Made by a program: the position numbers and the translations under genes
Origin: a virus
Direction: 5' to 3' (one strand)
Virus record (IMG/VR): IMGVR_UViG_3300017971_000736
Coordinates: 1-24,838 of that record
DNA: 24,838 nt
Shown here: in pieces, positions 2,289-6,908 of the stretch
How the letters are laid out: each line of letters starts with the position of its first letter
Position numbering within the stretch: the stretch's first letter is position 1
Notes under the pieces: generated by a model
Told to the model about the DNA's origin: nothing
Database searches by the model: none
The model's input: the letters and a program-made list of their open reading frames with translations, nothing else

Positions 2289-2639
2289 CTACGTGCATGA
2301 CGTAGGGATGATCTGATTGATCCACACATCGTACGAAGGCCCGCCGCCGCTGGCGTAGTAGCGGTCCAGGTACAGCAGGTACAGCGGCTCACCAGCCTGA
2401 CCATCCGCGACACGGCCACAGAACTCGAACGCGGGAACCCAGCCGCCCTCGACAGGATCAGGGGAAACCTCAGCCAGCGGAGCGAGGACACCGAAATCTT
2501 CCGGTGGCGCAGCCCCGCCAGACACAGGCGCGTCCACAGGATCGTCGTCCGACTCTGCTACAGATGCCCACACGGTGAACAGCACACCGGCAAGCAGCAC
2601 CGCCAACACGGCAATCGGGATCGCATACCGTCCAGTCAC
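2289..2639 (-). CDS. Membrane-anchored exported protein of unknown function (116 aa)
   Basis: GTG at 2639 overlaps the endolysin stop (TAGTG). Residues 6-28 form one strong membrane segment after a short basic start (MTGRYA), so it looks like a signal anchor or uncleaved signal peptide, with the rest outside the cell. A Pro/Asp/Ala-rich linker (about 30-60) leads to a small C-terminal domain with two cysteines (FCGR and the final SCT) that could form a disulfide. There is no lipobox cysteine. Its place right after the endolysin suggests an accessory lysis or cell-surface role such as superinfection exclusion. No family recognised. Confidence 0.65.
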   Translation of the reverse strand: MTGRYAIPIAVLAVLLAGVLFTVWASVAESDDDPVDAPVSGGAAPPEDFGVLAPLAEVSPDPVEGGWVPAFEFCGRVADGQAGEPLYLLYLDRYYASGGGPSYDVWINQIIPTSCT

Positions 2640-3310
2640 TAGAGTGTCACCCCGAAGGCTTCCAAATCGTCAACGTCCTTGCCCGCCGACCATTCAACGA
2701 TGCGCCCACCGACCTTCTGGGTGATCGACTTGATCGCGGACTCCTCCTTCGGTGAGCGAATCTTCCGCTTGGTGCCCGCAGCCGGATAACAGGCGTAGCG
2801 GGTGCCCTTGTGCTGGATCAGAATGACGACCACTTCGTCCTCCTCAGGTTGCGGCGATGGTGACGGTGACGGTGACGGTGACGGTGCACCCGTCGGCTTC
2901 CAGTTGAACATGTCCTGCGGGTTCAGCATCACACCGCAGTTCCACGCCTGCTTGCGGCTATGCCGCTCGAAGTGCCCGTGGGGGCCTGTCGCATTACCGT
3001 CGGCTCCAACACGGGCGATGTGCTGGCCCGCCTTCACCTCGGTGCCGTTCGGCAGGCGATCAAGAGTATGCGCGACGAAGAACTCCTCGTTCGCGAACGG
3101 CTGCCCCTTGGAGGGGCTGATGACGAACTGGCTCCTGCCGAAGGAACCGCCGTAGTTCCGCCAACGGATCGTGCCCGCGATGGGGGCCTTGATCGAGGTG
3201 CCCTTCGGCGCGGCGATGTCAGTACCCGTATGCCAGCCGCAGGCTCTCCAATATTGCCCTCGGATGCCATACGCCTGGTTGATGGAGTAACCAGGAATCG
3301 GCCAGACCAT
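2639..3310 (-). CDS. Endolysin, M23 metallopeptidase (223 aa)
   Basis: Residues 1-138 form an M23 (lysostaphin-type) zinc peptidase. The expected residues are all present: H27 and D31 in HTGTD, H81 in the VAHTLD segment, and H111/H113 in GPHGHFE. Such enzymes cleave peptide cross-bridges of peptidoglycan. A flexible Ser-Pro linker (143-155) joins a C-terminal domain (about 158-223), rich in basic and aromatic residues, probably a wall-binding module; I do not recognise its family. No signal peptide is present, so release should depend on the holin just upstream, whose stop overlaps this ATG (TGATG). The domain order catalytic-linker-binding is standard for endolysins. Confidence 0.9.
   Translation of the reverse strand: MVWPIPGYSINQAYGIRGQYWRACGWHTGTDIAAPKGTSIKAPIAGTIRWRNYGGSFGRSQFVISPSKGQPFANEEFFVAHTLDRLPNGTEVKAGQHIARVGADGNATGPHGHFERHSRKQAWNCGVMLNPQDMFNWKPTGAPSPSPSPSPSPQPEEDEVVVILIQHKGTRYACYPAAGTKRKIRSPKEESAIKSITQKVGGRIVEWSAGKDVDDLEAFGVTL
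2861..2884. repeat. Four tandem copies of a 6-bp unit in the endolysin linker
   Basis: TGACGG is repeated perfectly four times on the plus strand, with a diverged copy before it. On the coding strand it encodes the Ser-Pro repeats of the endolysin linker. A hexamer keeps the frame, so copy-number change would alter linker length only. Confidence 0.85.
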
Positions 3311-3582
3311 CAGACCCCCCCGTCGTATTCCTCATCCACGGTCAGTTCCCCGACCCAGATAGGTTCCTGCGAAGGTTCAGGAATCGCATTGGTTGTGAAG
3401 TAGACGCCGGTCCAAGTAGCCGTAGCCGTACTGAACAATGCCCACAGCCCAGCCAGCAGCACCACCCACCAGTCAGCGTCAGGATACGCGACAACCACCC
3501 CGAGTACCGTGGAGAACCCAGCAGTCAACCCGCCCAGGATCGCACCAACAAGTGCCTTGCCCTGCTCATCGACTCTCGTCAT
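3310..3582 (-). CDS. Holin (90 aa, two membrane segments)
   Basis: Two hydrophobic segments lie at about residues 10-32 (ALVGAILGGLTAGFSTVLGV region) and 37-62, joined by a short turn with YPDADW. The N-terminus is charged and the C-terminus is acidic. This layout and its place directly before the endolysin, with a one-base overlap (TGATG), are typical of actinophage holins. I chose the ATG at 3582 because AGAGGA lies five bases upstream. An in-frame ATG at 3588 and a longer reading from 3615 have poorer sites. Holins form membrane pores that let the endolysin reach the wall. Confidence 0.75.
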   Translation of the reverse strand: MTRVDEQGKALVGAILGGLTAGFSTVLGVVVAYPDADWWVVLLAGLWALFSTATATWTGVYFTTNAIPEPSQEPIWVGELTVDEEYDGGV

Positions 3583-3679
3583 CTTCATCCTCTCCCTCGA
3601 ACCAGAATAGAACAAACGCTACCAGTGATGCCGTCGCTATAGCAGCCATAACCAGCAGCGGCGCGAACCAGCACGTCAC
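3566..3679 (-). CDS. Small single-span membrane protein in lysis cassette (37 aa)
   Basis: A GTG at 3679 overlaps the stop of the HTH gene (GTGA), and the frame runs 37 codons to TGA 3568-3566, overlapping the holin start by 17 bases. The product has one clear membrane segment (about residues 4-26, LLVMAAIATASLVAFVLFWF) and a strongly acidic C-terminal tail (EGEDEDDESR). Without it the stretch 3583-3675 would be an unusual gap in a tightly packed operon. The holin's ribosome site lies within it, so the two are probably coupled. An antiholin or second holin is plausible; this is inferred from position and topology only. Confidence 0.6.
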   Translation of the reverse strand: MTCWFAPLLVMAAIATASLVAFVLFWFEGEDEDDESR

Positions 3680-3966
3680 TGAATCTTCTCCAACGGCGGG
3701 AACAGGTCAGACAACCGTACCCCTAAGGCATCGGCGCACAGGTACACGTCATACACACTCCAACGGACATGACCGTTATAACGTGTACTCAACGCCTTCG
3801 ACTGCAACCCAGTCTGCTGCACCAGCCACGACCAGTTCTTATCTTCTTTCCGCAGAAAGAAACTGATACGCCGCGTGATCTCCTCATGCAACCACAACTC
3901 AGTCGCATCAGCCTGCCACTTGCGCTCATTCCCCACTGCCACGATCCTCGTCGTCGCAGTCATCAT
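3676..3966 (-). CDS. XRE-like helix-turn-helix protein (96 aa)
   Basis: Residues about 30-92 look like a compact Cro/C1-type HTH: ITRRISFFLRKE, then SWLVQQTGL (helix two), SKALSTRYNG (recognition helix), then WSVYDVYLCADALGVRLSDLF, the usual final helices. Length and architecture match small phage regulators. ATG at 3966 (with AAGGGA eight bases upstream) overlaps the preceding membrane gene by 41 bases. A GTG at 3936 with GAGGA eight bases upstream is an alternative start giving 86 residues and a shorter overlap. It lies among lysis genes in the late operon, which is odd for a repressor; it may set lysis timing or shut down other promoters. Confidence 0.65.
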   Translation of the reverse strand: MMTATTRIVAVGNERKWQADATELWLHEEITRRISFFLRKEDKNWSWLVQQTGLQSKALSTRYNGHVRWSVYDVYLCADALGVRLSDLFPPLEKIQ

Positions 3967-4156
3967 CGTGATGGTCCCTTCCGAACCTGTCGTGCAACTC
4001 CACCGTGATCACCACACCAAGCAGTATCATCGCCGCAGCCCACAGCGCCGTCCCGTCCCGACCATCCTGGGACAGCCGGTACGACCCAGACAGCATCAGC
4101 AGCACGACACCGGACAGGGTGCCGAGTTTCCAGAACAGGTCGGATTGGTTCTTCAT
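3926..4156 (-). CDS. Small membrane protein, possible holin-like (76 aa)
   Basis: ATG at 4156 overlaps the previous stop (ATGA). Two membrane segments are visible, about residues 8-25 and 37-54, followed by a very acidic and histidine-rich tail (HDRFGRDHHDDDCDDEDRG). Two-span topology and its position just before the lysis genes suit a holin or holin partner, but the charged tail is also like other phage membrane proteins. The tail could bind divalent metal. No family is recognised with certainty. Confidence 0.6.
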   Translation of the reverse strand: MKNQSDLFWKLGTLSGVVLLMLSGSYRLSQDGRDGTALWAAAMILLGVVITVELHDRFGRDHHDDDCDDEDRGSGE

Positions 4157-4404
4157 CCCACTAGCAACCCCTGCACAGCAGCCAGGATCATCGCGTCAGA
4201 GATGACCGCAGGATCGCGTCCTGGGTCTTCCACCCCGCCAGCCAGCGCGGATGCGTAGGCGTCGGCCAACCCTGGCGCGGCGGCGACACGGATAGTGTTG
4301 TCCACCACCCAGCCGAACGTCGCGCCCTCCTGGATCGCGCAGAACTCCACGCGGGCCTTGAAATCCTCGTCTATAGCGAGCAGGTGCCCGTCCCAGTAGG
4401 CCAT
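4153..4404 (-). CDS. Conserved hypothetical protein (83 aa)
   Basis: ATG at 4404 has AGAGGA eight bases upstream, and the stop overlaps the next start (ATGA). The protein begins MAYWDGHLLAIDEDFKARVEFCAIQEG and is alanine-rich and mostly helical, without membrane segments. Small proteins of this kind follow tail fibre genes in several actinophages, where they may be minor tail or fibre-assembly components. I cannot name its function. Coupling to the membrane gene downstream suggests it belongs to the transition between tail and lysis genes. Confidence 0.6.
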   Translation of the reverse strand: MAYWDGHLLAIDEDFKARVEFCAIQEGATFGWVVDNTIRVAAAPGLADAYASALAGGVEDPGRDPAVISDAMILAAVQGLLVG

Positions 4405-5237: not shown

Positions 5238-6908
5238 TCAGCGGCCCGGAGGATAATCCGGGCTGGCGACGATCACGGTGCGGTACTGGCCCGCTGTCAC
5301 AGCCGTGGCGAACCTCAGTGTCACCGTATCCATAGAAGTGCGCTCCACGTCGCATATTACCGTGTCGTACGGAGCCGCGTTGCGGTACACCGTCACAATC
5401 ACATTGCGGGTGCCCAGGGAATGGTCGATCACGGGAGAGGAACCCGAGGGAACGGCGCTCGTGAAGTGCGTGGCGCGGGTGGTGATCCACTGGTCGGTGT
5501 AGGAACGATCCGAAGCCGAGTGGATGTCGTCCTGGGCGTCGGCATAGTCCTGATCCTCGGCAGAATGCACAACGTCCTGGGAATCGGCATACGCCCGATC
5601 AGCCGTGGAATGCAGGTTGTCCTGGCCGTCCGCGTAGGCTTCCGCGTCGCTGAGGACGACAGCATCGCGGTCGTCCGCATACGTCTTCGCCGCAGCCTCG
5701 GCAGCATCCGCTGCGCCCAACGGGTCGTAGTCGCCGTCGTGATTGTGGTTGATCGGTGCTTTTCCGGCCAGAGCGGAGTTCAGGCCGGTGACCGCGCCCA
5801 TCGGGTGGGCATCGGCTGCGTCCCTGCCGTCCAGGTCGTTGTGGTCGGTGATCCCGCCCTCGACCACCGTCGCGGCCAGCGACATGTTGCCCGAGCCGTC
5901 GATGGAGACACTGCCCGTCACATCGCCGGTGAGGCTCAGCGTGCGCGCCGTCGTCCACTTCGGAGCGGAGATGACCGACACCTGATCGGCAGCCACGTCC
6001 AGGTTGGCGTCGCCCACCACGTTGAGCGTGACATTGCCCGACAGCGCCCCGCCGCCGGTCAGGCCGTTTCCGGCGACCACCTGCCTGGAGGTCGGCACCG
6101 CGCCGAGCGATGCGGCGTCGATGACGATGACCCCTGTCTGGCCGTTGACGGAGATGACCTGGCCGGTCGCCTGCACCTCCTTCCAGTCCTCCAGGGTGGT
6201 CGGGTCGTCCGACGACAGCACATACGTCCTGGAGTTGTCGGTGCGGATCGCCATGTCGCCGCGCTCCGCGACGAGATCGAGCATCTCCGCTTCGCTATCC
6301 ACGGTGAACACTTCGTTGATCGCCAGCGGAGGCAGATGCACCGTCGGGATGTGCGAGTCGGCGTCCAGCGGCGCATAGCCGCCTGCCGCGCCCTTCTCCG
6401 AACGCTCCTGGTAGTTCGTATCGAAGTACGAAGCGTCCACCGAGACTGCGGTAGGAGTGACCGTGATGCCGGTGCCAGCACCCACGGCGAGACTGCGGTT
6501 CGCGGACAGATCGCCGCCACCCGTAAGGCCGTTGCCCGCAGCGACCGTCGTGGCCTTGAGCGCCTTCGCGGCGAGATCGTCTTCCAGGTCAGCGATCTTC
6601 GACTGCGCGATGTCGGCAGAGGCGCTCACGTCCGCGTTGACGATCACACCAGGCTTGAGCGTCGGATTCGGGTACACACCTGCGAGGTCGCCGCCCGCCG
6701 GTCCCGTGGGCGGCGCTCCAGCATCGGCCAGCCCGAACGTCACCCACTTCGTGCCGTCCCACTGCAGGAGTTTCTTCGTCGTCACGTTGTAGAAGAACTG
6801 CCCCATGGCGGGGCTGGTGACCGCCGTCTCGTCGGTGCCGCTGGGCGGGACGAACGCGATAGCGGGCAGCCCGTTGAAGTTGATCGCGCTCAGGTACGAG
6901 ATGGACAT
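5238..6908 (-). CDS. Large tail fibre / minor tail protein (556 aa)
   Basis: The protein is built of fibre modules in order: an N-terminal segment with YNVTTKKLLQWDGTKWV, the G.LAGVYPNPTL unit near 73-85, two AGNGLTGGG.LS units (about 124-136 and 279-291), a NHNHDGDY metal-type motif near 387, a stalk of four 15-residue repeats (409-468), and a C-terminal beta domain beginning at HSLGTRNVIVTV (496). These units are well known in tail fibres and form trimeric shafts. GGAG lies six bases before the ATG. It should be the main structural fibre, with host contact at the C-terminus. The host receptor cannot be told from sequence. Confidence 0.8.
   Translation of the reverse strand: MSISYLSAINFNGLPAIAFVPPSGTDETAVTSPAMGQFFYNVTTKKLLQWDGTKWVTFGLADAGAPPTGPAGGDLAGVYPNPTLKPGVIVNADVSASADIAQSKIADLEDDLAAKALKATTVAAGNGLTGGGDLSANRSLAVGAGTGITVTPTAVSVDASYFDTNYQERSEKGAAGGYAPLDADSHIPTVHLPPLAINEVFTVDSEAEMLDLVAERGDMAIRTDNSRTYVLSSDDPTTLEDWKEVQATGQVISVNGQTGVIVIDAASLGAVPTSRQVVAGNGLTGGGALSGNVTLNVVGDANLDVAADQVSVISAPKWTTARTLSLTGDVTGSVSIDGSGNMSLAATVVEGGITDHNDLDGRDAADAHPMGAVTGLNSALAGKAPINHNHDGDYDPLGAADAAEAAAKTYADDRDAVVLSDAEAYADGQDNLHSTADRAYADSQDVVHSAEDQDYADAQDDIHSASDRSYTDQWITTRATHFTSAVPSGSSPVIDHSLGTRNVIVTVYRNAAPYDTVICDVERTSMDTVTLRFATAVTAGQYRTVIVASPDYPPGR
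5505..5684 (-). repeat. Four 15-residue repeats in the fibre stalk
   Basis: Residues 409-468 of the large fibre divide into four units of exactly 15 residues with consensus xYADxQDxLHSxxDx. The aromatic Y at position 2 and the aliphatic residue at position 9 alternate at spacings of 7 and 8. Units two to four are closest; the first is more diverged. At the DNA level these are 45-base tandem units with substitutions. Confidence 0.8.

Follow-up and report, generated by a model that had tools for sequence, protein, structure and literature searches.

XhlA of Bacillus subtilis PBSX is a single-span protein of about 90 amino acids that is encoded immediately before the holin XhlB and the lysin, and it acts together with the holin. 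In the phages Girr and NormanBulbieJr (NBJ) the single-span protein LysF1b is encoded downstream of its two-span partner LysF1a with an ATGA overlap, and deletion of LysF1b changes the timing of lysis (PMC13056207). Triggerable holin activity was found in the single-span protein of these phages, while the two-span protein depends on it (PMC13056207). LysF1b, a protein of 124 amino acids, has four basic residues behind the helix as well as a long charged helix in the cytoplasm; LysF1b-like single-span holins range from 92 to 150 amino acids, and the link of LysF1b to Pfam DUF2746 (PF10874) is based on HHpred (PMC13056207). Single-span proteins are combined with multi-span ones in many actinophage cassettes, and the single-span holin-like proteins of Gordonia rubripertincta phages (79-145 amino acids, with C-terminal domains of 52-115 residues) are always arrayed with multi-span proteins in the cassette (PMC9671378). 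HolP33 of the Bacillus phage Deep-Purple, a protein of 98 amino acids, is also encoded in a lysis cassette and has a short N-terminal segment, an N-terminal single span and a charged C-terminal part (PMC9327680).

The DNA analysed here, called the window below, is a 24.8-kb viral record in which the portal, major head, major tail and tape measure genes lie on the minus strand. The portal has relatives in Arthrobacter, Microbacterium and other actinobacterial phages. The operon on this strand is compact, with overlaps of 4 nt, and the genes of the lysis region are transcribed in the order orf83, TM76, HTH gene, ORF37, two-span holin-like gene, M23 endolysin and sec116. The first of these, orf83 (4153-4404, minus strand), is a conserved neighbour gene which served as a synteny marker. 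Homologues are found in L037 (57% identity), G001/L021, L111, L099, L047, L048 and Microbacterium phages including Nicole72 and Zanella, and the identity is about 30-60% in several viral contigs and the Microbacterium phages. The protein (...PGxADAYASALAG...DPAVISDAxILAAVQ...) is a conserved hypothetical one encoded near the lysis cassette in many actinophages, Microbacterium phage Ariadne among them, and in G001 two diverged stretches resembling orf83 are separated by about 3 kb (L021 4248-4472 and 7256-7459).

TM76 (3926-4156, minus strand) encodes a membrane protein of 76 amino acids with two predicted spans and an acidic tail overlapping the start of the HTH gene; it gave no significant match to PHROG, Pfam or NCBIfam families. 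The Cro/CI-like HTH gene (3676-3966, minus strand; alternative starts GTG 3942 or 3936) matches the PHROG transcriptional repressor family phrog_4583 (E = 1.2e-5). A gene of this kind inside a lysis cassette, flanked by genes for membrane proteins, is unusually placed. A small MerR/excisionase-like HTH frame is also found directly 3' of the M23 lysin in L048 (5005-5187, plus strand), so HTH genes may be recurrent in such cassettes.

The putative holin gene (3310-3582, minus strand) encodes 90 amino acids with two predicted spans, the second of them weak (19-residue Kyte-Doolittle means, KD19, of 1.95 and 1.46). Alternative starts exist at ATG 3588 and TTG 3615, and ATG 3582 is best backed, by the purine-rich sequence GAGGGAGAGG (3589-3598, minus strand), which is likely the ribosome-binding site. 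The holin label is weakly supported: the protein aligns weakly with the PHROG holin family phrog_11087 (E = 0.06 over residues 1-84), and no holin match was found in Pfam or NCBIfam. The gene is small, predicted to encode two spans and adjacent to the endolysin gene, which it overlaps by 1 nt. The M23 endolysin (2639-3310, minus strand) matches PF01551 above the Pfam cut-off (4.5e-14) as well as several PHROG endolysins, and is up to 63% identical to its relatives (L047). A run of GGTGAC repeats on the plus strand (2855-2890) encodes a (Ser-Pro)n linker which joins the M23 domain to the C-terminal part of the protein. The adjoining gene, sec116 (2289-2639, minus strand), encodes 116 amino acids with an N-terminal span (KD19 2.52) followed by a presumably exported domain. 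It has no significant match in the PHROG and Pfam families, and its position makes it a candidate for a lysis protein that acts on the envelope, LysZ-like or otherwise. A start of the type SPDGLRYPVDxDxPDVPRDFKNLAEDVQAAL is common to the frame at 1704-2261 of the window and the tandem frames L021 3053-3580 and 3661-4206.

ORF37 (3566-3679, minus strand) is a candidate gene for a single-span membrane peptide of 37 amino acids, starting with GTG at 3679 and stopping at 3566, with the translation MTCWFAPLLVMAAIATASLVAFVLFWFEGEDEDDESR. The original prediction had described this frame correctly. The GTGA at its start overlaps the TGA stop codon of the HTH gene (3676-3678), and it ends 17 nt into the holin frame when ATG 3582 is taken as the holin start. 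The single membrane helix (KD19 2.44) and the very acidic tail that had been reported were confirmed as well. The tail, EGEDEDDESR, consists of 10 residues of which the terminal arginine is the only basic one; the basic residues that usually fix an N-out/C-in arrangement are missing from it, and the charge pattern is ambiguous. The sequence upstream of the GTG is GCCGTTGGAGAAGATTCA, and a GGAG Shine-Dalgarno-like motif (3688-3691, minus strand) is located 8 nt before the GTG, within the last codons of the HTH gene.

The arrangement resembles that of XhlA in that both proteins have a single span and are encoded ahead of a holin and a lysin, although XhlA is more than twice the size at about 90 amino acids. 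The likeness to the Girr and NormanBulbieJr pair lies in adjacent single-span and two-span genes within a lysis cassette, the short overlap and the charged C-terminal tail. Like the genes of LysF1b-like proteins, ORF37 adjoins a two-span gene, here of 90 amino acids, in a cassette with an endolysin, here of the M23 type. It is, however, placed upstream of the two-span gene, has only 37 amino acids against the 92-150 of LysF1b-like proteins, and carries a 10-residue acidic tail with no basic residues directly after the helix. No match at E ≤ 1 was obtained for ORF37 in Pfam, including DUF2746 (PF10874), and no family or phage-database match to LysF1b was seen. It may work somewhat like LysF1b, but by size and charge it is not a member of that group. 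The Gordonia proteins (PMC9671378) share with ORF37 the one helix, the very short N-terminal part and the charged C-terminal part, while ORF37 is far smaller. HolP33 is likened to it by its description (PMC9327680), and belongs to another host group. The published single-span proteins of 79-150 amino acids have cytoplasmic domains, and ORF37 has no such domain.

The original prediction argued that ORF37 is a real gene from its overlaps and from the gap it fills. The gap is indeed anomalous: without ORF37 it would be 93 nt long and the largest in its stretch, where the other gaps are about 0-27 nt by ORF coordinates. The overlaps turned out to be frequent by chance. The 93-nt gap was shuffled 5000 times with dinucleotides preserved; 29% of the products were open from the GTG into the holin, and the open frame and the end overlap alone are therefore little evidence. 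Frames both open and as hydrophobic as ORF37 arose in only 0.08% of the shuffles (0.5% at a threshold of 2.0). A match of the same grade as the GGAG is found at about 25% of random positions. Codon usage failed as proof that ORF37 is coding and points the opposite way. The synonymous codon usage scores -0.225 and differs from that of the other genes in the phage; a score as low is reached by only 0.1% of in-frame windows of 35 codons, and this counts against ORF37 being a gene. The end of the HTH gene, next to ORF37, also drifts low in this score. The mRNA is less folded than shuffled sequences (z = +1.78), and neither an attenuator, sought by mRNA folding, nor a promoter or terminator was found near ORF37. 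The intrinsic evidence for a gene is thus mixed.

Searches for homologues of ORF37 in phages with tblastn gave none, the best match being to a Lactobacillus phage (E = 0.3 over 21 residues). No homologues of ORF37, the holin, the HTH gene or TM76 were found in phage records and viral contigs. A weak holin match in G003 was rejected, as it sits in a 938-amino-acid frame resembling a tape-measure protein, and a match between ORF37 and L055 (E = 0.22) was rejected as homology since it reflects shared architecture and low complexity. The L055 frame (5251-5424, plus strand) lies after the lysin and encodes a single-span peptide of 49-57 amino acids whose tail of 25 residues is very acidic. An ATGA overlap comes next, and the acidity of this tail does not come from an overlapping start. 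The lysin alone as query found no close relative. Bacterial genomes scanned with orf83 held no close relative, and a scan with the lysin alignment returned mainly distant Streptomyces M23 proteins.

Comparable cassettes were therefore located by means of the two conserved neighbours, the endolysin and orf83. Divergent phages with the same M23 endolysin, several of them also with orf83, carry single-span frames of 32-45 amino acids in comparable positions, and these are overlap-coupled to a membrane gene or the lysin. In G001, a relative with 53% capsid identity, a 32-amino-acid frame begins inside the 3' end of the lysin gene and has a GTGA overlap with the next membrane gene. Its homologue in L028 is 53% identical (E = 2e-11) and has the same place and the same overlap, as does a related 45-amino-acid frame in L092, and a W-W-x-L-D-x-x-E-Q motif is common to the three. 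ORF37 has no such motif, displays F-W-F-E-G-E instead and gives no BLASTP alignment with L028, and hence it does not belong to this family. The L021/L028 peptides are the one homologous pair where selection could be tested, and purifying selection on them was not demonstrated (pS 0.33, pN 0.39; no clear synonymous excess). In L111 a single-span frame of 41 amino acids has an acidic tail; its upstream overlap is with a multi-span gene and its downstream overlap with the lysin. The homologous frame in L099, possibly 59-61 amino acids long, follows the equivalent multi-span gene, with the lysin 2 kb further on. A 36-amino-acid frame in L037 lies between a membrane gene and the lysin. All these frames resemble ORF37 in size, single helix, overlap coupling and a location in or near an M23-lysin cassette, and most of them have a charged tail as well; the L021 family differs in following the lysin, while ORF37 precedes the holin and the lysin. 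No significant similarity was detected between ORF37 and these analogous peptides.

Single-span frames of 25-60 amino acids fitted between their neighbours were sought in 73 non-redundant lysin loci: 13 lie near the lysin (179 kb), against 1 elsewhere (323 kb) and 4 antisense near the lysin. Not all of the matches are secure: the L095 frame belongs to a longer one, L115, L117, L118 and L120 make up a single family whose members probably have a second span, and L061 has 26 amino acids only. About five distinct families are left after curation, and the enrichment of tiny single-span frames beside the lysin persists, less dramatically.

Membrane genes of similarly small size stand at corresponding sites in other phages with a cluster of this kind. 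For this reason ORF37 is probably a genuine gene that has been overlooked in the lysis cluster, and its kind is a recurrent one. The gene status proposed originally is thus upheld, mainly through the hydrophobic helix and the analogous frames in other phages and not through the overlaps. Of the other explanations, the one that survives best is that the 93 nt before the holin are an untranslated spacer, in which the ORF37 frame is open by chance and hydrophobic by accident. This would agree with the share of shuffled gaps that open into the holin, the codon usage that does not fit the phage, the commonness of GGAG-grade matches and the searches that gave no homologue. It is nevertheless unlikely, given how rarely the shuffles yield such a helix (0.08-0.5%), how tightly the operon is packed elsewhere and how other phages repeatedly carry tiny single-span frames in their cassettes.

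The acidic tail had been taken as support for a role in lysis, and this argument has to be discounted. All 10 residues are encoded by sequence that serves the holin in another frame, five codons lying in its purine-rich ribosome-binding region and five in its first codons; GAGGGAGAGG itself codes for EGE and supplies the first base of the D codon. When 20 gene starts of the window are read at an equal offset, Asp/Glu make up 18% of the residues on average, compared with 8% at random; the 67% of the ORF37 tail is the highest among the starts examined. The holin ribosome-binding site thus explains part of the acidity. Since this site and the start codons largely dictate the residues, the acidity is weak and non-independent evidence of function. 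The acidic tail of TM76 over the HTH start calls for the same caution and is no independent sign of function.

A tail dictated in this way, together with the overlaps at both ends and the atypical codons, would also suit a coupling leader, whose translation would serve to pass ribosomes on from the HTH gene to the start of the holin, with the peptide sequence mattering little. Coupling would, however, not need a strong helix, which is rare by chance and kept in all the analogous peptides. Moreover, the holin has its own purine-rich site, and the weakly folded mRNA offers no hairpin for coupling to open. We therefore regard a mere leader as quite unlikely. That ORF37 is itself the effector, serving as co-holin or depolarising the membrane while the two-span protein is its partner or antiholin, as proposed for LysF1b/LysF1a, would accord with the holin activity of the Girr/NBJ single-span protein and its two-span dependent (PMC13056207) and with the mixed cassettes of many actinophages (PMC9671378), but is improbable for a peptide that has neither the basic residues which follow the helix in LysF1b-like proteins nor their long charged cytoplasmic domain.

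In the favoured reading ORF37 is a real gene for a lysis accessory acting through the holin, which is about as likely as not. A role in lysis timing is plausible, in that it fits both the position beside the two-span holin-like gene and the M23 endolysin and the published pairs. Ribosomes that terminate at the HTH stop would begin again at the GTG overlapping it, and on reaching the end of ORF37 they could move 17 nt back to the holin start, so that peptide and holin would be made together. The peptide would most likely insert into the inner membrane beside the two-span holin and pair with its helices. Such pairing would shift the holin concentration at which triggering occurs, making ORF37 an antiholin-like or co-holin accessory that would either restrain or help the holin.

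As one orphan frame ORF37 is a modest finding, while the recurrence of tiny single-span frames is a useful and testable generalisation. Tentatively, actinophage-type cassettes may commonly hold unannotated single-span peptides of 32-45 residues, ORF37 being one, that act as minimal holin partners and set the time of lysis. It is an equally speculative part of this proposal that the peptides form a class of mostly unrelated sequences, alike in size, position and translational coupling. Lysis control by the single-span partners of two-span holins was only recently shown in mycobacteriophages, and the partners described from mycobacteriophages and Gordonia phages have at least 79 amino acids. If peptides of 32-45 amino acids do the same job, many lysis cassettes would be incompletely annotated, genes this short being often missed, and the minimal unit for modulating a holin would become directly testable.
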